This document shows, one piece after another, positions 438 to 18,400 of a stretch of 64,000 nt of DNA. Below the pieces are notes generated by a model. The model was not told where the DNA came from and did not search any database. It saw only the letters and a list, made by a program, of their open reading frames with translations. A program made the position numbers and the translations under genes. Position 1 is the first letter of the stretch. Each line of letters opens with the position of its first letter. This DNA is from Chamaelirium japonicum. Its lineage: Eukaryota; Streptophyta; Magnoliopsida; Liliales; Melanthiaceae. The DNA lies in the NCBI GenBank assembly GCA_947650365.1, contig OX393549.1, forward strand, positions 22,469,572 through 22,533,571, in the 5' to 3' direction.

Positions 438-3400
438 GTGAGTCAACCCGCCCCCCCCCTCCCTCTATTTCGAAGTCTCATCGTTTCCCCCATTATTCTC
501 CGATCTCCGACCCCGATCCGTCCAATCGCAGGTCCTCCTCGGCGACATGGGCGCCGGGAAGTCAAGCCTCGTCCTCCGCTTCGTCAAGGGCCACTTCCTC
601 GAATTCCAGGTTCCATTCCCACTCCAATTCCACGATTTTTTCCCGTCCTAATGCTTTCGTTCTCATCAGCTGCTGTTTCCATCGGTAGGAGTCCACGATC
701 GGGGCCGCCTTCTTCTCGCAGACGCTGGCGGTGAACGACGCAACGGTGAAGTTCGAGATCTGGGACACCGCCGGGCAGGAGAGGTACCACAGCCTCGCTC
801 CCATGTACTACCGGGGGGCTGCGGCGGCCATCATCGTGTTCGACATCACCAACACGGTACGATAGCCGCCGCGGTGGCGGCGGTGGCCATCTTCCATTTG
901 CCTCTCAAATTCTGTTCTCTCTGTAATTCAATTGGATTACAGAGAATGTGTTTCATTCTTCTGATTTTTTTTTTCTTCCCTTCGGTTGTTAGGAGTCGTT
1001 CGAGCGAGCTAAGAAATGGGCGCAAGAGTTACAGAAGCAAGGTTGGCTGATGATGGACATCATAAATTATAATTCTAACCATTTTCTTTCTTTTATGTTG
1101 AATTGGAATTGATTAAGGAATTGGGCTGTGTCGATCGATATGTTTCACGAGCTAATGTGGATACTTGGTGTAGGTAACCCGAACATGGTGACCGCTCTTG
1201 CGGGAAATAAAGCTGATTTGGAAGATAAAAGGAAGGTGACAACTGAGGTAAGAATACTTGAAATCATTGCCTACCCTAATAAGTCAAATTATATTGTACA
1301 TATTTAGTATTTTTCAGTAGTTCAGTTTCTAATTCTGTTTTATTTTTTGGGTTTGCTTCCAAATGGCTAGAAATAACTATTTTCTTTATCTGTATTGACA
1401 AATGTCGAAATTCAATCTTGTCTCCGTAGTAGTTTACATTGTGGAAGTTGAAGAATGGTATGCGTACGGATTCTTATGTTGAGTGTAAGTTGGGGTTGTT
1501 TAGTAACATATGATTTGCACAAGGCATGCATTCATCTCCTATGTGCGTCATCTTACGTTTCATCCAGGTTAGATAAAATTTCTCCGGGGACATTTGTGTT
1601 TGTTGTTCCAAAATAAAATATCATGGAGTCATGAAAAAAAATGTAAATCTGTAATGTTTCTCAGATAAAAGAATCCATTTTCTTCCTCTGCTAATTGATT
1701 AGAAGATTTTGAAAGATGGAAAAAGCGATGGTGGGAAGCAATAAAGATAGTATGGCTAAGTAATAATACTTCATGCGATATATTGAGTGGAATTTAAGCT
1801 GATAGGGAAATAGACAAAATGACTCGAAATGCTCGGGCCCACTTATTTCGGCTGAAGTTTTGCTGAATTCGTCGAAATGCCCTGAAATGACTCGAAATGC
1901 ACCAAAATTCTTTGAAATCCAGAATACCGAGGTTTCGCATAGGTGTTTCGTTTCGGTTGTGTTTGAAACCGAAATTTCGGTTTCAAAATTTTGTCATTTC
2001 GTCCGAAATCTCAAACCATGTATTGGGCTATGGTAATATCGAAGGATTCAGAATCAGAGCTATCAATCGGACCCCTAGGTTTAGTTAAGTGGAATTAGTT
2101 CTGCTACTTATCAAAGGATTCAGCTTTGCCCGCATTTTTTAAAATTTGAACCAAACAAACAAACATTAATTAACTACATATGTGTATCAAAGGATTTAAT
2201 TTTGAAATATGGAGTTTTTTTAAGCAAGTACACCCAAAAATAAAGAAGAGCACAATCGATAGAACAAAAAACAAACAAGTACTACATAATTTCAAAATGT
2301 ATATATGAAGGAATTTAGTAAATAAATACATCGAAAATTAAAAAAAGAACATTTGTGTGGGGATTAAATAGCAGAGTAGTTTCTCTTTGTTATGTCCAAA
2401 ATCCTCAAATTTCTATGTTCAAAAGTAAAAAAAGATACATGCTTTGTGTTATAACCAAGGTTCTAAAAAACGTTAGGCGCTAGCCGGACGGTGAGGGGCC
2501 ACCTATCGCCTAGGCGTTTTGGTTTTTTTTTAATTCATTTTTAAAAAAGGGGTGAGCCACCGTTAAGGAAGGTCGGATCCAAGAAAGGGACTGCCGCTGG
2601 GTAAGGTCGGATCAAGAGAGTGACTACCACTGAGGAGCCCGCATAGCTTGCCTATCCAGCCTGGCCAGACCACGCCTAGCTCCGCCTAACTCCGCCTGGG
2701 AGGATGGCCGTTTTTTTGGAGCGCCTAGGACTTAGGCTGGGCGGTGGGGGGCCGCCTTGGCGGTCGCCTAGGCCGCTTTTTAGAACACTGATTATTACTT
2801 ATAACCAGATTAGGAAAACTTTGTTGGGTTTTTTAAAGTATATATTTTTGTTCTAATGGAATTCCATTGGTAAACGCCTAATGTTTTGGGGCATAAAAGG
2901 TGCGGCTAACCTGGGCATGCACCCAGGCAAGGTTCAAAATCACGGTATTGGTCAGTCCTGAACCGGTATGTACCGGCCGGTATGTATCGGTACCGGCCGA
3001 TACGGACCGATACCGGTTGAGGGAAAAAAAATTAAACATGTAGGTACCGGTCCGTATCGACTGTACCTATTGGTGCCGGCTTGAAACGGCCGATATGAAT
3101 CGGTACGTACTGGTACTGGCCGATACGGACCAGGTATCGGGATCGGGTGTTGTACCGGTCTCGAACCGGGCAAAACTGGTACGCACCGGTCGTCGCCGTT
3201 GTGGGTGCAAATTTTGGCCAAATGCCCCACGGCGGGACCCACCAGCCTTGCCTGGGGGTCCACATGGATGACAGCGGGACCCACCAGCCCTGCCTGGGGG
3301 GTCCACAGGGACGACAGCGAGACCCACCAGCCCTGCCTGGGGGGTTCACAGGGACGACAGCGGGACCCATCAACCCTGCCTGGGGGGTCCACAGTGACGA

Positions 3401-6400
3401 CAGCGGGACCCATCAGCCCTGCCTAGGGGGTCCACAGGGACGACATCGAGATCCATCAGCCCTGCCTGGGGGATCCACAGAGACGACAGCGGGACCCACC
3501 AGCCCTGCCTGGGGGGTCCACAGAGACGACAACGAGACCCACCAGCCCTGCCTAGGGGTTCACGAAGACGACAACGGGACCCACCAGTCCCCGTCTGGAT
3601 CCAGACGACAGTTGTAGAAAACCGCCCTTTACCCCGGTTTTCCTTCTAAAAAACTTTATAAATAGCGGACCCTACAAGTGTAATAGATTGAATTTTTGAT
3701 TACAAAATCAGACTTTCGAAAAATCCCAGAGCTCTGACACCTTAACCCCTCGATCTGCTTTTCGAAGAGATCGGTGATACTCAACCTGTCGATATCACTT
3801 TGAGTAAAGTGTTAGTGAATTCAGGTTGCACCTTACAGCACGGAGACATAGGCTTCGGCTGAACTCCGAGATCATATCTTATGTCAATTTGTTCCTCTCT
3901 TTTCTAATTCAAAGTTAGTACTAGAAGACGTCGATCTCCGAACCTGCAGACTAGACAAACGTTCGATCAGACATTCGACTCGACTCGATTGACTGGTTGG
4001 GCGGAGTCTTTGGGTCGGCACGAAGATCATCCCCCACAGTTTGGTGCCGTCTTTGGGATCCGTTCGAAAAACTCAGTTCGCTCGACGACAATGTCAAATT
4101 GGTTGAGCAAACAACCGATCTCCAAAAGCCATACTTCTCAGTTCCTTCGGTTGAGCAGACAACTGATTGGACGCGAGCGATATGGTTGTATCCTTCGCCG
4201 CTACTGAATGGCGAAGACAAAGCATCTGGATCATCCAGAGGGAAGTAACACACAACGACATCAGTCTCAACCCGAGACTTGCTCGATGAGTCGGCGGCTC
4301 AACTTTGATCCATCTCCCGCTCTTTCTAGACAATTCATCGTCGACACCTCCCGTTGATATCCCGAGCCTTTCAATTCTGACTCACCTCCAATCCCCATAT
4401 TGGGGGTGATGTTCAAAACGAAAAGGCTCACCTGAAGACTACAACGATCGAGGGCTTGGAGACAGCCAGATCTCGAGCATCCTTTAACATTACAGATTGC
4501 TTGAAGATTCAAAAGCTGATAGGCAAAGCTATGTGTTACATATCGACAAAGTCCAAGGAGATAGCTTTGGCACTTGAATGTAAAGTCCGAGGCGCACTCG
4601 CTGCCTCGGCATCCGACAAAGTCCAAGGAGATAGCTTTGGCACTGCATCCGGCACTCGGATGCAAAGTCCGAGGCGCACTCGCTGCCTCGGTATTCAACA
4701 AAGTCCAAGGGGATAGCCTTGGCACTCGAAGACATAGTTTGGAGCGGTCGCCGCCTCTTCAAATTTCATTTCAAATTCCATCCAACCAATGGTCCAAGGC
4801 CGATCAAGTGCAACAGTACAAAGCTATGTGACTGAGACGTAGGTTAGACTGAAACGGCTCTTCGCCTAAGTCGACCGATACAAAGGCACTACGCTGAGTA
4901 TTCCGAATCATTGGTGTTGCACACGCTCTCGTTGTCACGTAAAGACACATGCGCCCGTGTCTCACTACAGTTAGATCGGTTCGCGTTGCGACACGACCGA
5001 CTAACCTGCAACAGTACAAATCTACGTGCCCCAACGTAGGGTCGACTGAAACGGTGCTTCGCCTAAGTCGACCGATACAAAGGTACTACGCTGAGTACTC
5101 CGAATCATTGGTGTTGCACACGCTCCCGTTGTCACGTAAGGACACATACACCCACCCGTGCCTCACCACAGTTAGATTAGTTCGCGTTACGACACGACCG
5201 ACTAACCTGCAACAGTACAAAGCTACGCGCCCCAACGTACGTTCGACTGAAACGGCGCTTCGCCTAAGTCCAACCGATACAAAGGCGCTACGCTAAATAC
5301 TCCGAATTCTAGCCTTCATCATTCAAACAAGCCCAAGGAGACAGCTTTGGCATTCGAAGACAGTCCGAGGTAGGCTTCGTCGCCTCGGCACCCTCCAAAT
5401 CCCTAGACATCGACATCGTCTCGGTCCAAGGAGATAACCTTGGCCTTCAAAGACAGTCCAAGGCAGGCTTTCCTGCTTCGGCAGGTAACAAGTCTGAGTT
5501 TATTGTCCTGACACTCAATGACAAGGTCCGAGACTGACGTCTTAGCATTCAATCAAAAGTCTAAATATACTACATTGGCGTGCGAGGGCAAAGTCTGAGG
5601 CTTGAACATTAGCATTCGAAGACAAAGCCCAAACTTAGTCCTAGTATCTGGCAGCAAAGTCTTAGGTCATAGCCTTGGTTCCCCATAGAAAATTTTGAAA
5701 AACAGTTGGCACACGGCTACGGCAAAGTTGGAGGCCATAGCTGACGGTTGCAGGCAAACCGTTCGGGGGATAGTCGGCGCATTCGACGGTCGATAGTCGA
5801 TCTTTCGACAGTAATTGAATATTTCGTAATGACAGATCGTCTCGACCGATCAGTAAAACTTCAATGCTATTTTTGCAAGATTTGGTCAAAACATGGATCT
5901 TGTGGACCGTTAACTGTTAGTAGAGACCGATTGGTTGGCCCTTGGTCGGGGGTCTTCTATGTTTGTCCATGCATCTTCTAAAGGTGACTCAGTTCCGATG
6001 GACCGAATCGCATTATCGATGAGTCGCACTCATAGGCGAGAAACAACTGTGATAGGGATCCTATCACAAATCCAGAGAAGCGCTACATCAACAGACATTA
6101 TTCATGCCCGCAAACGGTGGGAGCTTGGTCCATTAATTCCACAATCCCGGGCGCATGCCATCAACAAGCCGGGTTCGCATTGGTAGTGAGACCCAGTTTC
6201 AGTACAGGAGATCCCTCCAACTAAAGAGAGGAAATCCCACTAGGACCCGATCTAGTATTCAGTCCAATTGAAATGCCGTTTGGTTGAATGATGTTTGATC
6301 GAAAATTATTCAAATCAAACGACCATAGCATGCCGGGTTGAGTGCACGCGTGGTCCATGCACGAGACGTTTACATGGACCTTCACGTGGGTTGTCAACTT

Positions 6401-9400
6401 TTACTCTCTAAACCGGCGCTAACAACAAACGTGTGAATCAACGGCCACAATTTGTGACAACAATCAAAGTATCGATGACATTGCTTACAAGGTGTACAAC
6501 ATCACTCAAAGCCTCTTGTGTGGCAATCGGTCACGAGCCCATTGACCCGATCGATGGCCAGAATTTACACATTCACAAACAAACAAGGCAGCAGAGAGCC
6601 AGATAAGCCACAATTGGAGCCCGTGACTCATATGCCCAGTGGTGCTCTCCTCCTCTTCCTCTGAAGTCCACGAAGCAGCAACGTCGAGGCCCTCCGAGCG
6701 GTTGCAGGTCGTGGATCCAGCAGCAGCCTCCTCTACGCCGCCCTCGACTCCGATAAGCAACGCGCACCCGATCGGTCACAGCTGCAACGTCTCCTATCTT
6801 CACCGACAACGGCAACTCTACTACCGATCGGGTGCCGGCGACCGATCGGTCGCTGGCAACCGGTCGAGATTTCATCGATCGGTTGCCAGGAGGGGTATTT
6901 CGTCCGATCCAGTGCAAAATCACCCGATCGGCAATCTCCTCTTCCTCGACACCGGCAGGCAGCGCCCGATTTACGACCGACAGCCACAACTCAGCGACTC
7001 CGCCACTGATCGGCTGCCAGTGACCGATCGGTCACTGGCAACCGGTTGAGGTTTCAGCGATCGATGATCGGTCACTGGCAACCGGTTGAGGTTTCAGCGA
7101 TCGATCGCCAGAAGAGGTTTTTCTCCCGATTTAGTGCAAAATCACCCGATTGGTGATTTTTTCTTCCGATCGGTCAAATTTGCCCGATCGAACGAATTTG
7201 TCCGATTGGTCAAATTTGCCCGATTGGCGACCAGTGACCAGTCTCGCCCCTCTGACAACAACCCTTCGTCCACAACCCGATCGGCCAAAAAACCACTAGA
7301 TCTGGCGCCAAACGCGTGTTTCCGATAGATCGACCAAATCCCAACCGGTTGGTTTTGTTCGATCGGCGACCGACGCCCGATCGGTAATCGGCGGCCGATC
7401 CGAGTTCCCTCCGGTGACATCAGTGCGACTAAGGATCGACTACCTGCGCCCGATCGGTCTTTCCTGACACCGGCTGGTGCGCCCGATCAGCGACCATCGC
7501 CAGATCGGAGATCTACGACAGATGATCGATCCTCCTTGCCCTTAACCGGCAGAACGACGACGACTAACTCGATTGGAGATGCAATATAGTTCTTCTGGTG
7601 GTGCACGATCGGCGATCGGACATCTGCGACTGGCTGGCGGCTCCCTTCTCCGACAAGGACGGTAGCACGACGACAGACCGGATCGGCTCCTCCCTTCCCT
7701 CTATACCATTCTTGGTGGCTCATTCCTTCACCAACAGCTCCACCTTCTCCAACTCGATCGGACGGTCAGATGAGTGTGACGTTAATCAGCTTTGGAGTGA
7801 TGGATGACTACGATCGGTTCTCATACTGATCTTCAACTTGACCCGGTTGGCATAAGATCCGGCAGTCGTCCTCCAATGTCTTTAGTTTTCAAACAGCCAT
7901 GGGTAGAGGAGCCATTACCCATCCTCCCCTCTCCGATCTGATCCATCAACATTAGAGGCAGACAATCAAGTCCACCGACCCTTGGCAGGGGGTCTCCTGT
8001 TGACCGATCAATAGACATCCGATCGGTCAAAACTTGACCGATCGGTCGAAGACACCCGATCGGACATATTTGACCGATCGGACAAATTTGACCGATCGAT
8101 CAAATTTGACCGATCGGACGAATTTGACCGATTGGACGAATTTGACTGATCGAACAAATTTGACCGATCGGGCAAATTTGACTGATCGATCGAAGACAAC
8201 ACCCGATCGACAGGCAGACGATCGGGTGAATTTCCAAAGGATCGGGCAAAAAATATTGTTTTTTACCCGATCGACCCAAGCTCCATCGGCTGAATTTGAC
8301 CGATCGGATAAATTTAACCAATCGGACGAATTTGACCGATCAAGCAAATTTGATCGATCAGGCGAATTTGACCGATCGGACAAATTTGACAAATCGATCA
8401 AAGACAACACCCGATCGACAGGCAGACGATTGGGTGAATTTCCAAAGGATCGTGTAAAAACATTGTTTTTTACCCGATTGACCCAAGCTCCACCGGCTGA
8501 ATTTGACCGATCGGGCAAATTTGACCGATTGGATAAATTTGACAGATCGGATAACTTTGACCGATCGGTCAAAACCTGACTGATCGATCAAAAAACAACC
8601 TGTCAACGGGTCTTGTCTAGCCTGTTGCCAGAGTCCTATGTGAGCATAACACCAACCCATGGCAGGGGGTTTGGATTTTGCACCTGGATTCCAAGTCAGC
8701 CAGATCGGCTTCTAGCTAACTTGGAGGGGGTAACTGTGGGTGCAAATTTTGGCCAAACGCCCCACGGCGGGACCCACCAGTCCTGCCCGGGGGGTCCACA
8801 GGGACGACAGCGGGACCCACCAGCCCTGCCTTGGGGGTCCACAGGGACGATAGTGGGACCCACCAGCCCTGCCTGGGGGGTCCACAGGGACGACAGCGGG
8901 ACCCATCAGCCCTGCCTGGAGGGTCCACATGGACGACAGCGGGACCCATCAGCCCTGCCTGGGGGATCCACAGAGACGACAGCGGGATCCACCAGCCTTG
9001 CCTAGGGGATCCACAGTGACGACAACGGGACCCACCAGCCCCCGCCTGGATCCGGACGATAGCTGTAGAAATCGCCTTCTACCCCGGTTTCTATTCCAAA
9101 GCTTTCTAAATAGCAGACCCTACAAGTGTAATGGATCGAATATTTGATTGCAGAATCAGACTTTCGAAAAATCCCAGAGCTCTGACACCTTAACCCCTCG
9201 ATCTACTTTTCGAAGAGATCGGTGATACTCGGCCTGTCGAGATCACTTTGAGTAAAGTGTTAGTGAATTCAGGTTGCACCTTACAGCACGGAGAGTAGGC
9301 TTCGGCTGAACTCTGAGATCATATCTTGTGTCAATCGTTCTCTCTCTTTTCTAATTGAAAGTTAGTACTAGAAGACGTCGATCTCCGAACCTGCAGACTA

Positions 9401-12400
9401 GACAAACGTTCGATCAGACATTCGACTCAACTCGAGGTTGGGCGGAGTCTTCGGGTCAGCACGAAGATCAAATTCGTCCGATCGGTCAAATTCGTTCCAA
9501 TCAATCAAATTTATTCGATCGGTCAAATTTAGCCGGTGGAGCTTGGGTCGATCGGGTAAAAAACAATAATTTTTGCGCGATCCTTTGGAAATTCACCCGA
9601 TCGTTTGCTTGTCGATCGGGTGTCAAATTCGTCCGATCGGTCAAATTCGTCCGATCGGTCAAATTCGCTCGTCCGATCGGTCAAATTCGTCTGATCGGTC
9701 AAATTCGTCTGATCGGTCAAATTCGTCCGATCGGTCAAATTCGCCCAATCGGTCAAATTCGTCCGATTGGTCAAATTGATCTGATCGATCAAATTCAGTC
9801 GGTGGAGCTTGGGTCGATCGGGTAAAAGACAATGTTTTTTGCCCAATCATTTGGAAATTCACCCGATCGTCTGCCTGTCGATCGGGTGTTGTCTTCGATC
9901 GATCTGTCAAATTTGCTTGATCGATCAAATTTGTCCGATCGGTCAAATTTATCCGATCGGTCAAATTCGTCCGATCGATCAAATTTGTCCGATCGGGTGT
10001 CTTCGACTGATTGATCAAGTTTGACCGATCGGATGTCTATTGATCGATCAACGGGAGACCCCCTACCAAGGGTCGGTGGACTTGATTGTCTGCCTCTAAT
10101 ACTGATGGATCAGATCGGAGAGGGGAGGATGGGTAATGGCTCCTCCACCCATGGCTGTTTGAAAACTAAAGACATTGGAGGACGGCTGCCAGATCTGATA
10201 CCGATCAGGTCAAGTTGAAGATCGGTATGAGAACCGATCGTAGTTATCTATCACTCCAAAGCTGATCAACGTATCACATTCGTCTGACCGTCTGATCTAG
10301 TTGGAGAAGGTGGAGCTGTTGGTGAAGGGATGAGCCACCAGGAATGGTATAGAGGGAAGGGAGGAGCCGATCCGGTCTGTCGTCTTTCCTTGGTCGTGCT
10401 ACCGTCGTTGCCGGAGAAGGAGCCGTCAGCCAGTCGCAGATGTCCGATCGGTTGCCGATCGCCAATCGTGTACCACCAGAAGAACTCTGTTGCATCTCCG
10501 ATCGAGTTAGTCATCGTCGTTCTGCCGGTTAAGGGCAAGGAGGATAGGTCATCTGTCGTAGATCTCCGATCGGGCGATGGTCGCCGATCGGGCAAAGCTC
10601 GCTGATCGGGCGCACCAGCCGGTGTCGGGAAAGACCGATCGGGCGCAGGTAGCCGATCCTTAGTTGCATTGATGTCACCGGAGGGCACTCGGATCGGCCG
10701 CCGGTTACCGATCGGGCGTCAGTCGCCGATCGGACAAAACCAACCGGTTGGGATTTGGTCGATCTGTCGGAAACATGCGTTTGGCACCAGATCTAGTGGT
10801 TTTTTGGCCGATCGGGTTGTTGACGAAGGGCTGTTGTTGGAGGGGCGAGACTGGTCGCCGATCGGTCACTAGTCGCCGATCGGGCAAATTTGATCGATCG
10901 GACAAATTCGACTGATTGGGCAAATTTAACCGATCGGAAGAAAAAATCACCGATCGGGTGATTTTGCACTAAATCGGGAGAAAAACCCCTTATGGCGACC
11001 GATTGCTGAAACCTCGACCGGTTGCCAGTGACCGATCGGTCGCTGGCAGCAGATCAGTGGCAGAGTCGCTGAGTTGTGGCTGCCGGTCGTAAATCGGGTG
11101 CTGCCTGCCGGTGTCAAGGAAGAGGAGATTGCCGATCGGGTGATTTTGCACTGGATCGGACGAAATACCCTTCTGGCAACCGATCGATGAAATCTCGACC
11201 GGTTGCCAGCGACCGATCGGTCGCCAGCACCGATTGGTAGTAGAGTTGCCGTTGTCGGTGAAGACACGAGACGCTGCAGCTGTGCCCGATCGGGTGCGCG
11301 TTGCTGATCGGAGCCGAGGGCGGCGTAGAGGAGGCTGCTACTGGATCCGCGACCTGCAACCGCTCGGAGGGCCTCAACGTTGCTGCTTCGTGGACGTCGG
11401 AGGAAGAGGTGGAGAGCACTGGGCATGTGAGTCATGCTCTCCAATTGTGTCTTCTCTGGCTCTCTGCTGCCTTGTTTGTTTGTGAATCTGTAAATTCTGG
11501 CCATCGATCGGGTCAATGGACTCGTGACCGATTGCCACGCAGGAGGCTTTGAGTGATGCTGTACACCTTGTAAGCAATGTCATCGATGCTTTGATTGCTG
11601 TCACAAATTGTGGCCGTTGATTCACACGTTTGTTGTTTGCTCTGGTTTAGAGAGTAAAAGTTGACAACCCGTGTGAAGGTCCATGTAAACGTCTCGTGCA
11701 TGGACCACGTGTGCACTCAACTCGACATGCTATGGTCGTTTGATTTGAATGATTTTCGATCAAACATCATTCAACCAAACGACATTTCAATTGGACTGAA
11801 TACCAGATCGGGTCCTAGTGGGATTTCCTCTCTTTAGTTGGAGAGATCTTCTGTACTGAAACTGGGTCTCACTACCAATGCCGAACCCGGCTTGTTGATG
11901 GCATGCGCCCGGGATTGTGGAATTAATGGACCAAGCTCTCACCCTTTGCGGGCGTGAATAATATTTGTTGATGTAGCGCTCCTCTGGATGTTGTGATAGG
12001 ATCCCTATCACAGTTGTTTGTCGCCTATGAGTGCGACTCATCGATAATGCGGTTCGGTCTATCGGAACTGAGTCACCTTTAGAAGATGCGTGGACAAACA
12101 TAGGAGACCCCCGGCCAAGGGCCAACCAATCGGTCTCTACTAACAGGTAACGGTCCATGGGATCCATGTTTTGACCAAATCTTGCAAAAATAACATTGAA
12201 GTTTTACTGATCGGTCGAGACGATCTGTCATTACTAGATGTTCAATTACTGTCGAAAGATCGACTATCGACCGTCGAATGCGCCGACTATCCCCCGAACG
12301 GTTTGCCTGCAACCGTCAGCTATGGCCTCCAACTTTGCCGTAGCCGTGTGCCAACTGTTTTTCAAAATTTTCTATGGGGAACCAAGGCTATGACCTAAGA

Positions 12401-15400
12401 CTTTGCTGCCAGATACTAGGACTAAGTTTGGGCTTTGTCTTCGAATGCTAATGTTCAAGCCTCAGACTTTGCCCTCGCACGCCAATGTAGTATATTTAGA
12501 CTTTTGATTGAATGCTAAGACGTTAGTCTTGGTCCTTGTCATTGAGTGTCAGGGCAATAAACTCAGACTTGTCACCTGCCGAGGCGGGGAAGCCTGCCTT
12601 GGACTTTGTCTTCGACGACCAAGGTTATCTTTTTGGGCCGAGACGATGTCGATGTCTTGGGATTTGGAGGGTGTCGAGGCGACGAAGCCTGCCTCGGACT
12701 ATTTTCGAATGCCAAGGCTGTCTCCTTGGGCTTGTTTGAATGATGAAGGTTAGAATTCGGAGTATTTAGCGTAGCGCCCTTATATCGATTGGACTTAGGC
12801 AAAGCGCTGTTTCAATCGAACCTACGTTGGGGCATGTAGCTTTGTATTGTTGCAGGTTAGTTGGTCGTGTCGCAACACGAACCGATCTAACTGTGGTGAG
12901 GCACGGGTGCATGTGTCCTTACGTAACAACGGGATCGTGTGCAACACCAATGATTCAGAGTCTTAGCGTAGTGCCTTTGTATCGGTCGACTTAGGCGAAA
13001 CGCCGTTTCAGTCGAACCTATGTTGGGGCACGTAGCTTTGTACTGTTGCAGGTTAGTCGGTCGTGTCGCAACGCGAACCGATCTAACTGTGGTGAGGCAC
13101 GGGCGCATGTGTTCTTACGTGACAACGGGAGATTGTGCAACACCAATGATTCGGAGTACTCAGCGTAGTGCCTTTGTATCGGTCGACTTAGGCGAAGAGC
13201 CGTTTCAGTCTAACCTACGTCTCAGTCACGTAGCTTTGTACTGTTGCACTTGATCGGCCTTGGACCATTGGTTGGATGGAATTTGAAATGAAATTTGAAA
13301 AGGCGGCGACCGCTCCGAACTATGTCTTCGAGTGCCAAGGTTATCCCCTTGGACTTTGTTGAATACCGAGGCAACGAGTGCGCCTCGGACTTTGCATCCG
13401 AGTGTCAAAGCTATCTCCTTGGACTTTGTCGGATGCCGAGGCAGCGAGTGCGCCTCGGACTTTTCATTCAAGTGCCAAGGCTATCTCCTTGGACTTTGTC
13501 GATATGTAACACATAGCTTTAACTATCGGCTTTTGAATCTTCGAGCAAACTGCAAAGCTAAAGGATGCTCGAGAGTTGGTTGTCTCCAAGCCCTCGGTCG
13601 TTGTAGTCTTCAGGTGAGCCCTTTCGTTTCGAACATCACCCCCAATATGGGGATTGGAGGAGAGTCAGAATTGAAAGGCTCGGGATATCGATGGGAGGTG
13701 TCGACGATGAATTGTCTAGGAAAAGCGGGAGATGGGTCAGAGTTGAGCCGCTGACTCATCGAGCAAGTCTCGGGTTGAGATTGATGTCGTTGCGTGTTAC
13801 TTCCCTTTGGATGATCCAGATGCTTTGTATTCGCCATTCAGTAGCGGCGAAGGATACAACCAGATCGCTCGCGTCCAATCAGTTGTCTGCTCAACCGAAG
13901 GAGCTGAGAAGTATGACTTTTGGAGATCGGTTATTTGCTCAACCAATTTGACATTGTCGTCGAGCGAACTGAGCTTTTCGAATGAATCCCACAGACGACG
14001 CCAAACTGTGGGGGATGATCTTCGTGTCGACCCGAAGACTCCGCCCAACCAGTCAATCGAGTCAAGTCGAATGTCTGATCGAACGTTTGTCCAGTCTGCA
14101 GGTTCGGAGATCGACGTCTTCTAGTACTAACTTTGAATTAGAAAAGAGAGAAATGACAGATTGACACAAGATATGATTTCGGAGTTCAGCCGAAGCCTAC
14201 GTCTCCGTGCTGTAAGGTGCAACCTGAATTCACTAACACTTTACTCAAAGTGATCTCGACAGGCCGAGTATCACCGATCTCTTCGAAAAGCAGATCGAGG
14301 GGTTAAGGTGTCAGAGCTCTGGGATTTTTCGAAAGTTTGATTCTGCAATCAAAGATTCGATCCATTACACTTGTAGGGTCTGCTATTTATAGAGCTTTGG
14401 AATAGAAACCGGGGTAGAAGGTGGTTTCTACAGCTGTCGTCCGGATCCAGACGGGGGCTGGTGGGTCCCGTTGTCGTCTTCGTGGACCCCCAGGCAGGGC
14501 TGGTGGATCCCACTGTCGTCTCTGTGGATCCCCAGGCAGGGTTGGTGGGTCCCGCTGTTGTCCCTGTGGACCCCCCAGGCAGGGCTGGTGGGTCTGTTGT
14601 CATCCATGTCGACCCCCCAGGTAGGGCTGATGGGTCCCGCTGTCGTCCCTATGGACCCCCCAGGCAGGGCTGGTGGGTCCCGCTATCGTCCATGTGAACC
14701 CCTCAGGCAGGGCTGGTGGGTCCCGCTGTCGTCCCTATGGACCCCCCAGGTTGGACTGGTGGGTCCTGCCGTGGGGCGTTTGGCCAAAATTTGGACCCAC
14801 AGCCGTTACATACCGTTATCGGCCGAGATTTCAAACCTTGTACCTAGGCTATTAATTGTATGCTCACTTTTGTCATCCTAGGGCCTGTTTGCCCAGACTC
14901 ACGTCGACCTGGGGTGTCCTAAGGTGCACCTAAATTATCCCTTTTAAAACACTAATTCAACATACACAAATTATGAGCTGCTACCATTTTTGAATTTTGT
15001 TATTTTAATGTTTTCTTTTTAATTTACCTATTATTCTTATAAATACCTAATAATTCCTAAGTTTTGATGTTTTCTTTTAATTGTTATGCTGTATGTGGCC
15101 TCAACTACTGCATCATTGTCTGTGCAACATTAGACCCTATGTTTGTCTTTGGTTGAATCTATTCATAGATCAAGGTCATCCTCATATTAAAAAAAGTTCA
15201 TCATAGTTGTACTCCACACCATTCAACATTGTTGGGTATGCTCTTTCTTTGTGTCAATAGGCAAAGTAGTGATGCATTTTGACAAGTTTTACAGCATGCA
15301 ATTTTGTTCATTTAGGTCTTGAACCTGTTTACCCTATTTATTCTTAATTATTTGCCTTGATTTTTGTTGAAGCAATGCTTTAGGAAATAATGATGTCTGT

Positions 15401-18400
15401 TCCTTTTTGGTTGAAACAATTGTTCAATCCAAATTGCATAACTAAGATTACTAAAATCCTGGTTGTTAGCTTGATATACAGTGTTAGCCCATTCTCTTAT
15501 AGCTTAAGCAATTGGGTGCAATGGTCACTTGTATCAGAGCTCTGGTTTCTGGGAGGTCATGGGTTCAAGTCTTGTTACATCTCTTTATTTATTCCGGTAT
15601 CTCCCCATTTCTTTAATTCTCCACGTGCGGCAGGAGACCACATGTGAGGGAGGGTGTTAGCCTGATATACATTGTTGGTCTATTCCCTAATAGGTTAAGC
15701 TTTTGGGTACAAGGTCGCTTAACACTGATCATTGAAAGTGGATCTGATTATGTTTGTGTATTTGATTACGCAAAGAACAGTTTACATGTGTTAGGTTCAT
15801 ATTTAGATGCTATTCGTGCAGTTCTTGTGTAGGATGAAAGATAATCGTGTGACACATAGTTTGATGTCTTAGTTGCTGTGGGGGAAAATCTTCGTGCCGA
15901 CCCGAAGACTCCGCCTCACCAGTCAATTGAAGGTTCGAGTCGAAGATCGTTGTTCGATCTATTGATTGATTGAAGTTGCAGTTCCCAATAGACAAGAGAG
16001 ATGCAATCAGAGAGTCGACGCGAGAGATGTGATCTCGGAGTTCAGCCGAAGCCTACGTCTCCGTGCTATAGGGAGCAATCCGAATTCACTAACACTTGTA
16101 TCGAAGTGATCTCGACAGGCCGAGTATCACTGAAACCACTCTGATCTCTTCAAAGACAAGAAGAAGATCGAAGAGAGGAAGAGGAGGGATGGAAACTGAA
16201 ATCCAGAGCTCTGGTTTCTGAAAATCAGATCTCGGAACTGAAAATCGGATTTCGGATCCCTTTTACATTCGAAGGGTTGCTATTTATAGGATTTTCTGGT
16301 GGCAAATGGCGGTTTCTACTGTCGTATCTGGGGATCCTCCAGGTAAAGCTGGTGGGCCCCGCTACTGTCTCCTGGGGGATTCCACAGACACTTGGGCCCA
16401 CTAGGCAGGACCGGTGGGTCCCGCGGTAGTCTTCGTGGGCCCACCAGGCAAGGCCGGTGGGTCCCGCCGTTGTCTTCGAGGGCCCACCAGGCAGGGCCGG
16501 TGGGTCCCACTGTTTGCAGACTTCTTGCCAAAATTTGCACCCACAGTTGCCTTTTTACTTAGAGATCCATGTATTAATTTTCTGATGTCTTGTTTTGCAG
16601 GAAGCACGAACATATGCCGAGGAGAATGCTCTTTTCTTCATGGAAACCTCTGCTAAAACAGCCATCAATGTTAATGACATATTCTACGAGATAGGTATGG
16701 GTAGTTAGCTTTCCTTTTGTTACTGATCAGGTAGGGCGAGTATGTTGGTTGTGGGATTCTATTGGTAATAATAAAATTCCCTTTTAAAGATTTTTCATGT
16801 GCATTTGCCATCAACAAGATATCTAGTAATGGATTAGGTCAATTGACAATTGTGGAGCAAATTGTCTTGGTGATCACTCAATCCCAGTATATAATACAGT
16901 ATGAATCGCTTTGTAACTCTCCTTGAGAAGATTTCTGTCAAGCATGCCTTTTTGGTCTTCTGTTTTCAACTTTGTTATGTATGAAACTGCAATGTTTTAG
17001 AATATTGTTGCACCTCAATATTGTTTTACCATTATGTTAATATAATGATGTGGTTGGTTTGTAATAGACGAGTTAGTTACTTAGTTTCTTATTTTCTGTA
17101 CATTTTTTAAAAGTATACCCAAGTGAATTTGCTAACAGTTTTTAATTGAAGGGAATTCCTAGGAATTCTTTTTAACTTGGTTTCGAGAATAATATGTTGG
17201 AAGAGCATTTTCATAATATTGACTTGGTCTAATATAGGGCACAAGTGCTCTTCAGAAAATAGGATTTAAGTCGAGTTTCTAAATGTTTACTGGTTGTTGT
17301 GGATGCTCTTCATAGGTCTAGTAGCTAAACAATTTTTTCCTCAAGTTCGGGTTTAGCATTACTCATTTGTTAAGCACATCACTAGAGATCCCTATTAATT
17401 GCACTGTAGATTGTGGTGAACCCAGATTGCATACCATTTCCATATGTGTTGTGGTAGCAAGCAGTTGACTTCATTTTAAAACCTCTTCAAATTATCTTGT
17501 AAAGATTTTATAGGCCAATTAATGGGTATCTGTCCTCCCTATTTTGTTTCATTCATGGTTCTGTAGTAGCAATTTACTTCCCTACAAAATTTCAGTAATC
17601 GCTGCAACAACCAACACACCACACACTATAGTAAACATAGAATCTGCTATCCTTATTGTAACTGATCATATATATCCTGCCAAGGACAATCAAATTTAGA
17701 ATTTAATTAGACTGACAAGTTGACTCTGGTGTTAACAATGATGCATGTACCATTTCTAATCATTAGTTCGGCATCAAGCACGAATGCATGAATTAGATGA
17801 TCCTTCATAGAGAGTATTCTTGAAGCCGAAGTAAATGGTGAGTGAACCAAGTGATTATTGTCCTTATAGTCACCAAGTTTGGGTTCGGCAATAATTCAGC
17901 TCATGTAAAGATCGGAAAAAATATGAAAGTTCGGAATAAAAACGGGAAAATATCGGGGAAAAGATCGGGTTCGGGATTTAATCGGTTAGCATGGAATTTG
18001 AATTTTTTTTTCGGAAAGTAGGGAAAAAAATAGAAAACCTCAGGAATACATATAGTTGTTTAATATATTACAAATTTCTTGTAACTTTTTGGGCTATGTT
18101 TAAGTAAATAAGACATTCAAAATTAATAAATATAACATAATAATATTAGACAACAAGCCATCAATAAGAACAACATCCACATCCCAATTAAGATTTATTA
18201 ACAAAACCATATAAATATCTTTGCAATATCATGCCAAAATAAGAATTACAAATACGTTCGAAAGTCATTAATTAAAATTTAATATTTCTATGAATCCTAG
18301 TTACCATTCATCAACTCACTAAAAGCATCAAATTTCAGATTTGCATCATTCTCTACTGTTAAGTTCTCTTCATTTTCTTAAAAGATTCATTGTCACCAAA

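Follow-up and report, generated by a model that had tools for sequence, protein, structure and literature searches.

Large retrotransposon derivatives (LARDs), which belong to the Ty3/gypsy class, carry long terminal repeats (LTRs), primer-site and polypurine-like signals and several kilobases of non-coding internal DNA. Complex insertions with three LTRs were ascribed to template switching by Sabot and Schulman (2007, PMC1950507), who in the accessible part of that paper stressed the high similarity of the two outermost LTRs. Patterns of LTR recombination from two RNAs have been described for intermolecular strand transfer in heterozygous particles of human immunodeficiency virus type 1 (HIV-1; PMC5651808, accessible part). 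Here we describe a palindromic LTR element in a stretch of 64,000 nucleotides of Chamaelirium japonicum DNA, hereafter the window (C1:22469572-22533571 of the 1.52-Gb assembly), which lies in an intron of a Rab5-like gene and meets the host DNA through two U3 (unique 3′) ends. We conclude that this palindrome is very probably a single insertion of two nearly identical complementary DNAs (cDNAs), the U3 ends of which were joined to one target in one event.

Structure of the palindromic insertion

The initial annotation had proposed the order LTR, internal region and LTR, all forward, followed by an inverted internal region and an inverted LTR. Self-comparison and alignments bore this order out over window positions 3200-14801 (11.6 kb in total). 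The two halves of this stretch gave inverted matches of 3.8 kb at 93.1% and 1.4 kb at 86.6% identity, with the third LTR central and forward, and the arms A and B (LTR plus internal region) were 93.2% identical over 5217 aligned sites. The parts are as follows, with the evidence for each in brackets.

3195-3199, forward strand: left target-site duplication, GCCGT (self-comparison, edge reading)
3200-4038, forward strand: LTR1, U3 outermost, with a 43-bp minisatellite in the U3 (self-comparison, alignments)
4039-8734, forward strand: internal region A (alignments)
8735-9470, forward strand: LTR2, central (alignments)
9466-9470, no strand: GATCA microhomology at the central junction of LTR2 and inverted internal region B (junction reading)
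9471-14006, reverse strand: internal region B, inverted (self-comparison, alignments)
14007-14801, reverse strand: LTR3, inverted, U3 outermost (alignments)
14802-14806, forward strand: right target-site duplication, GCCGT (self-comparison, edge reading)

Reading of the outer edges gave GCCGT followed by TGTGGGTGCA on the left and TGGACCCACA followed by GCCGT on the right. Both termini are U3 ends (TGTGGGT read inward) bounded by a 5-bp direct repeat, as had been claimed. LTR1 and LTR3 are complete, begin with TG and end with CA, and the 5-bp duplication flanks them; LTR1 terminates in ...CCCCCACA, which is followed by GTTTGGTGCC on the primer-binding side. Internal region A contains 18-bp tandem repeats near its 3′ end and the polypurine-like GGAGGGGGTAAC at its terminus. 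The annotated anatomy had to be amended at the centre of the palindrome: LTR2 is without the final 9 bp of its U5 (unique 5′) part and ends at GATCA, 5 bp that are common to the LTR2 end and the inverted internal repeats, and internal region B is without roughly 150 bp of the 3′ end found in A, together with its 3′ LTR.

The two edges proved to be parts of one interrupted dispersed repeat.

2928-3199, forward strand: left part of the interrupted repeat that served as target (flank alignment)
14802-14843, forward strand: right end of the same repeat, GAGATTTCAAACCTTG (flank search and alignment)

This repeat ends in GAGATTTCAAACCTTG, and the right flank contributes 42 bp of it. A genome search with the right flank found 22 other places, and the joined flanks of the window were compared with 11 of these. 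They aligned, with gaps, across the join to 9 of the 11 (L042-L045, L047 and L049-L052) from near the repeat start to its end at 68-79% identity. The flanks thus form one repeat across the join, and both junctions lie at a single point of one repeat copy.

Three further palindromes in the same genome

Searching the genome for other copies with two U3 ends, as the initial annotation had suggested, yielded three, which we call C5, C1_87 (on C1 at 87.3 Mb) and C7 after their positions. They were located through their inverted arms, and their edges were not used in selection. All four palindromes are bounded by exact 5-bp duplications (GCCGT in the window, TACAA in C5, CAAGC in C1_87 and GTGGA in C7), with TGTGGG at both outer ends. 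The outer U3 ends were intact in every case, all central junctions were different and parts of LTRs had been lost in three. The central joins consist of a 5-bp microhomology with loss in the window, 8 bp with loss in C1_87 and 1 bp with loss in C7; none was evident in C5. Five head-on pairs were examined in all (the window, C5, C1, C7 and C2), and four were palindromes, each with two outer U3 ends and an exact duplication; the searches were aimed mainly at head-on pairs, which by design are U3-out, and the finding of U3 outward in four of four partly reflects this.

The C5 palindrome (C5:59896663-59906253, L039 and L053) surfaced as a head-on pair in a search with an internal region (window 5455-6069), for which 40 of 366 candidates were scored. 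A pattern for the junction of LTR and primer site occurred at 4380 places; among the 100 listed, two head-on pairs lay within 14 kb, namely the C1_87 palindrome and a pair at C2:13.06 Mb. The latter was rejected as a palindrome, being a normal element in inverted orientation that lies beside another LTR and has TCACC at each of its ends. The junction pattern of the C1_87 subfamily occurred at 57 places, all of them listed, and its two pairs within 20 kb were the C1_87 and C7 palindromes, against a chance expectation of about 0.007 head-on pairs within 15 kb for 57 sites. Thus 4 of the 57 subfamily 5′ junction sites, the four to which reading was confined, belong to two palindromes. A one-letter variant of the general junction pattern, with 57 places, matched a single end of C5 and a single end of C7 without forming any pair by itself; two other subfamily patterns (10 and 3 places) gave no new pair. 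Diverging pairs, with U5 outward, were sought within 10 kb among the 100 listed places; the two that were read, L061 and L062, were neighbouring elements and not palindromes, and no diverging pair lay within 20 kb among the 57 subfamily places. Two same-strand internal matches 5 kb apart at C1:59824674-59829998 are possibly a direct tandem sharing an LTR.

In the C5 palindrome a forward LTR (664-1447 of the locus) is followed by an internal region, a forward LTR reaching to 6365, an inverted internal region and an inverted LTR (9519-10254), with TACAA at both edges. Its central LTR continues beyond CACA into GTTT, the bases found in 5′ LTRs before the primer site, and then passes into the inverted internal region. 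A four-base match of this kind arises by chance about once in 256, and the GTTT past the U5 end is suggestive of unintegrated cDNA. The C5 LTRs are partly mosaic. In the U3 near the TATA box (columns 300-479) LTR1 and LTR2 showed 5 differences in 178 sites and LTR1 and LTR3 41 in 176, whereas from column 480 to the end (the R-U5 part) LTR1 and LTR3 differed at 10 of 305 sites and LTR1 and LTR2 at 66 of 305. Judged from these patterns, two unlike co-packaged RNAs could have been reverse-transcribed; alternatively, conversion after insertion may account for the mosaic.

In C1_87 each edge carries CAAGC. A fragment of a 3′ LTR, about 200 bp long, there meets an inverted 3′ LTR from which the final 27 bp are missing, and the two are joined at eight bases that they share, CGAAGACT. 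The three near-full LTRs differ by 2.6-3.1%, the forward 3′ LTR fragment (196 bp) differs from LTR1 at 6 of 196 sites, and the internal arms differ by 1.87%. The C7 palindrome (C7:64219588-64231359, L060, L058 and L059; GTGGA at both edges) has the left end LTR-GTTTGGCGCCGTC-LTR, that is, an LTR, 13 bases from the primer-site side and a second LTR, all within the outer duplication. The extra primer-site bases between the two LTRs appear as they would in unintegrated cDNA. The C7 LTRs differ by 0.9-1.7% (8/869 for the outer LTRs, 9/825 and 14/825 for the other pairs, three values that are not separable) and its internal arms by 0.84%. The similar divergence of LTRs and arms indicates that neither C1_87 nor C7 contains a part much older than the others.

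Divergence between the internal arms, mostly by transitions, was 6.6% in the window (tandem repeats included), 3.8% in C5, 1.9% in C1_87 and 0.84% in C7. From these values the four palindromes look like independent events of different age. Two U3 ends have been joined to one target in a single event at least four times in this genome.

Relationships of the arms and LTRs in the window

For window 5455-6069 the two arms were 96% identical to each other, compared with 89-90% for the four best outside places among the matches scored. In a tree of 19 rows, arms A and B were sisters (100/99) with branches of 0.022 and 0.020, and L011 was next nearest. The tree was built without the arms of C1_87 and C7 and L034-L038, for which overlap was too small, without L017, L028, L030, L032 and L033 (<500 bases), and without L018.

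Outside the tandem repeats the window LTRs differed at 36 of 447 sites (LTR1-LTR2), 32 of 469 (LTR1-LTR3) and 19 of 447 (LTR2-LTR3). Polarised with four outgroup LTRs, the changes included 9, 8 and 5 private derived ones for the three LTRs, with 12 sites ambiguous, and these private counts fit one age for all three. In a patch of the U3 near the TATA box (about 3600-3690) LTR1 resembles L002, L004, L005 and L008, while the LTR2 and LTR3 counterparts resemble the more distant L003 at several places. As L003 agrees with LTR2 and LTR3 at several patch sites, the direction of change there is uncertain.

The element and its coding relative

Five of the eight stop-to-stop frames of at least 150 aa were scanned, three of them in internal region A, and none had a Pfam match at E 0.001. 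The C2:13.06 Mb element (S4) is a related full element; its termini read TGTGGG, and where its LTR meets the primer site the bases are nearly those of the window element. It encodes gag, protease, reverse transcriptase, RNase H and integrase domains, in the order typical of Ty3/gypsy elements. We read the window element as a non-coding, LARD-like LTR retrotransposon of Ty3/gypsy type, which a coding relative of the S4 type would presumably mobilise. At L056 5752-7701, forward strand, an open frame of 650 aa runs antisense to the gag-pol frames of the coding relative; its match to Transposase_28 is weak and lies below the cut-off.

The host gene

The Ras family profile was matched on the forward strand in consecutive order at 496-639, 719-859, 1128-1304 and 16598-16705, the third of these stretches being weak and below the cut-off. 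The exon-like stretch at 719-859 was nearest to Rab5-type chains, with RABF2b the best. The palindrome sits in the intron between the exon-like stretches at 1128-1304 and 16598-16705. The Rab5 intron setting given in the initial annotation is upheld by these stretches on both sides. The same intron contains, about 1.1 kb past the palindrome, a degenerate inverted LTR of the same family (15880-16545; about 75-88% identity in pieces).

Origin of the palindromes

That a single integration event took place through two U3 ends is supported by the exact duplications in four of four palindromes, the single interrupted target repeat and the sister relationship of the window arms. In the mechanism that we favour, an integrase, by analogy with known LTR elements, would attach two cDNAs by their U3 ends to a single target site in one concerted reaction, and a 5-bp stagger in this joining would yield the GCCGT duplication. 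A template switch or microhomology-mediated end joining would have fused the U5-side ends to each other; sequence was lost there, in the window one whole 3′ LTR.

Several observations weigh against a single insertion in its simplest form. Two of the 11 repeat copies, L046 and L048, aligned to the joined flanks over 44 and 67 bases only, around the right end, and the window has about six extra bases (GTCGTC) to the left of the duplication relative to the paralog L042, in a place where copy length is variable. Under a simple dimer, LTR1 and LTR2 should have been the same at insertion, but LTR2 and LTR3 are the closest pair. They have 7 changes and 2 small indels in common; about 50 bp of U3 by the TATA box hold both indels and 5 of these changes, and this patch requires a conversion or template switch in addition to the simplest dimer. 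The mosaic of C5 is unclean, since in columns 0-299 (the minisatellite) LTR1 differs about equally from LTR2 (28/256) and from LTR3 (22/254), and the C5 arms A and B are not exclusive sisters in the tree, where L019 and L016 interleave. In C1_87 the divergence of the LTRs is somewhat above that of the arms.

Two routes lead to a single insertion through two U3 ends. On the first, to which we give an even chance, fusion at the U5 side would have preceded integration: an inverted dimer would have been made in the particle or nucleus, either from two linear cDNAs or from a single cDNA that folded back as it was reverse-transcribed, and then been integrated through its two U3 ends. The extra LTR and 13 primer-site bases inside the outer duplication of C7 indicate that joined cDNA products do integrate, and the GTTT and partly mosaic LTRs of C5 point the same way; none of these marks, however, fixes the order of fusion and integration, and the central losses with their 5- and 8-bp microhomologies also fit repair of a break held between integrated U3 ends. 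Such a break is what would arise if an integration complex took up two cDNAs by their U3 ends and inserted them together at one site, the free U5 ends being joined later by host microhomology end joining. Retroviral integrases can use two separate donor DNAs in vitro, and the combination of intact outer U3 ends with differing central junctions and lost LTR parts is in keeping with this second route; yet it leaves a chromosome break in need of repair and does not by itself explain why the LTRs of C5 are mosaic, and we put its probability a little below even. The initial annotation had inferred an inverted cDNA dimer, formed before integration and integrated as one unit in place of sequential insertions: one event through two U3 ends stands, and formation of the dimer before integration is one of two possible orders that predict the same sequence.

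Adjacent and nested insertions of the family do exist, as S4 beside another LTR and the neighbours L061 and L062 illustrate, and two independent insertions in opposite orientation, followed by a deletion removing one 3′ LTR and with duplications matching by chance, might imitate a palindrome. A single 5-bp match beside LTR ends has a chance of about 1 in 1000, but beside that of the window three unselected matches would be needed, for a probability of about 1e-9 at equal base use. The contiguous target repeat, the window arms as mutually closest relatives and the excess of head-on pairs among the 57 subfamily sites also contradict independent insertions, which we regard as very improbable. Equally improbable is an assembly artefact in the form of a fold-back read or false palindrome. 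The analysis covered the assembled sequence, which leaves room for such an error, but divergence between the internal arms ranges from 0.84 to 6.6% in the four cases and consists mostly of transitions, where a fold-back would give near-identical arms, and the bounding duplications are direct, where it would leave the flank copied in inverted form. We also rejected the possibility that a resident element had been duplicated in inverted orientation together with its flank, because GCCGT on the right is in direct orientation and the right flank is not the left one in reverse complement.

Recurrence of the structure suggests a by-product of retrotransposition rather than the chance overlap of two insertions. 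More tentatively, and with the balance somewhat against it, inverted two-U3 insertions could be a regular product of LTR retrotransposition in Chamaelirium japonicum, accounting for a few percent of insertions in one subfamily, in which the complex takes the U3 ends of two cDNAs and the break between the U5 ends is then repaired.

Discussion

Integration of an LTR retrotransposon, on the reading of a single insertion through two U3 ends, does not require that a U3 and a U5 end come from a single cDNA, and palindromes of several kilobases can be created in one integration step. Such palindromes may be unstable and could pass for nested insertions. If the palindrome were transcribed from the host intron, it could become a source of double-stranded RNA directed against the whole family, and the Rab5-like intron may give rise to a hairpin transcript and to small RNAs. 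Were the structure a regular product, the normal transposition machinery would also make palindromes of kilobase scale, here in the intron of a gene, where the transcript could fold into a long hairpin. The four examples, of different age and with clean duplications, offer material for testing how cDNA ends are paired and joined.

The initial annotation considered such a structure to be rarely if ever described for a plant LARD. This agrees with the literature searched, in which no inverted two-U3 LTR element was found (subscription journals and preprints, including older retrovirus and yeast papers, lie outside its coverage), and the accessible parts of PMC12312487 and PMC5379124 contain nothing on such a form; within this genome, however, the structure recurs. 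The HIV-1 LTR patterns of PMC5651808 resemble what the C5 palindrome may show, but they belong to ordinary viral genomes, and the accessible part of that paper mentions no palindrome. With LARDs the window element has in common its LTRs, its primer-site and polypurine-like signals and its long non-coding interior; it differs in that a LARD is a single unit and the window holds an inverted double insertion.

The closest described systems are direct. Rice and other plants carry tandem insertions of LTR retrotransposons (Mob DNA 2025, PMC11899658) that likewise have 5-nt duplications and several LTRs, one such insertion lying inside another transposon, but the part of that paper available to us describes tandem arrays and no inverted form, whereas the window insertion is inverted. 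The elements of PMC1950507 and that of the window are alike in having two internal regions, three LTRs and one 5-bp duplication, and that paper, in its accessible part, explains them by abnormal reverse transcription before integration. Its elements consist of two units sharing an LTR, with no inverted second unit reported there, whereas the window insertion has an inverted second unit and a U3 at each outer end. The single duplication and three LTRs of the direct form are accordingly found in the window, and the same orientation of both units is not. As for the likeness of the outermost LTRs, the closest pair in the window is LTR2 and LTR3, and in C7 the outer pair cannot be separated from the others. 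Direct three-LTR insertions with duplications were known already, and the window adds an inverted form with two U3 ends.

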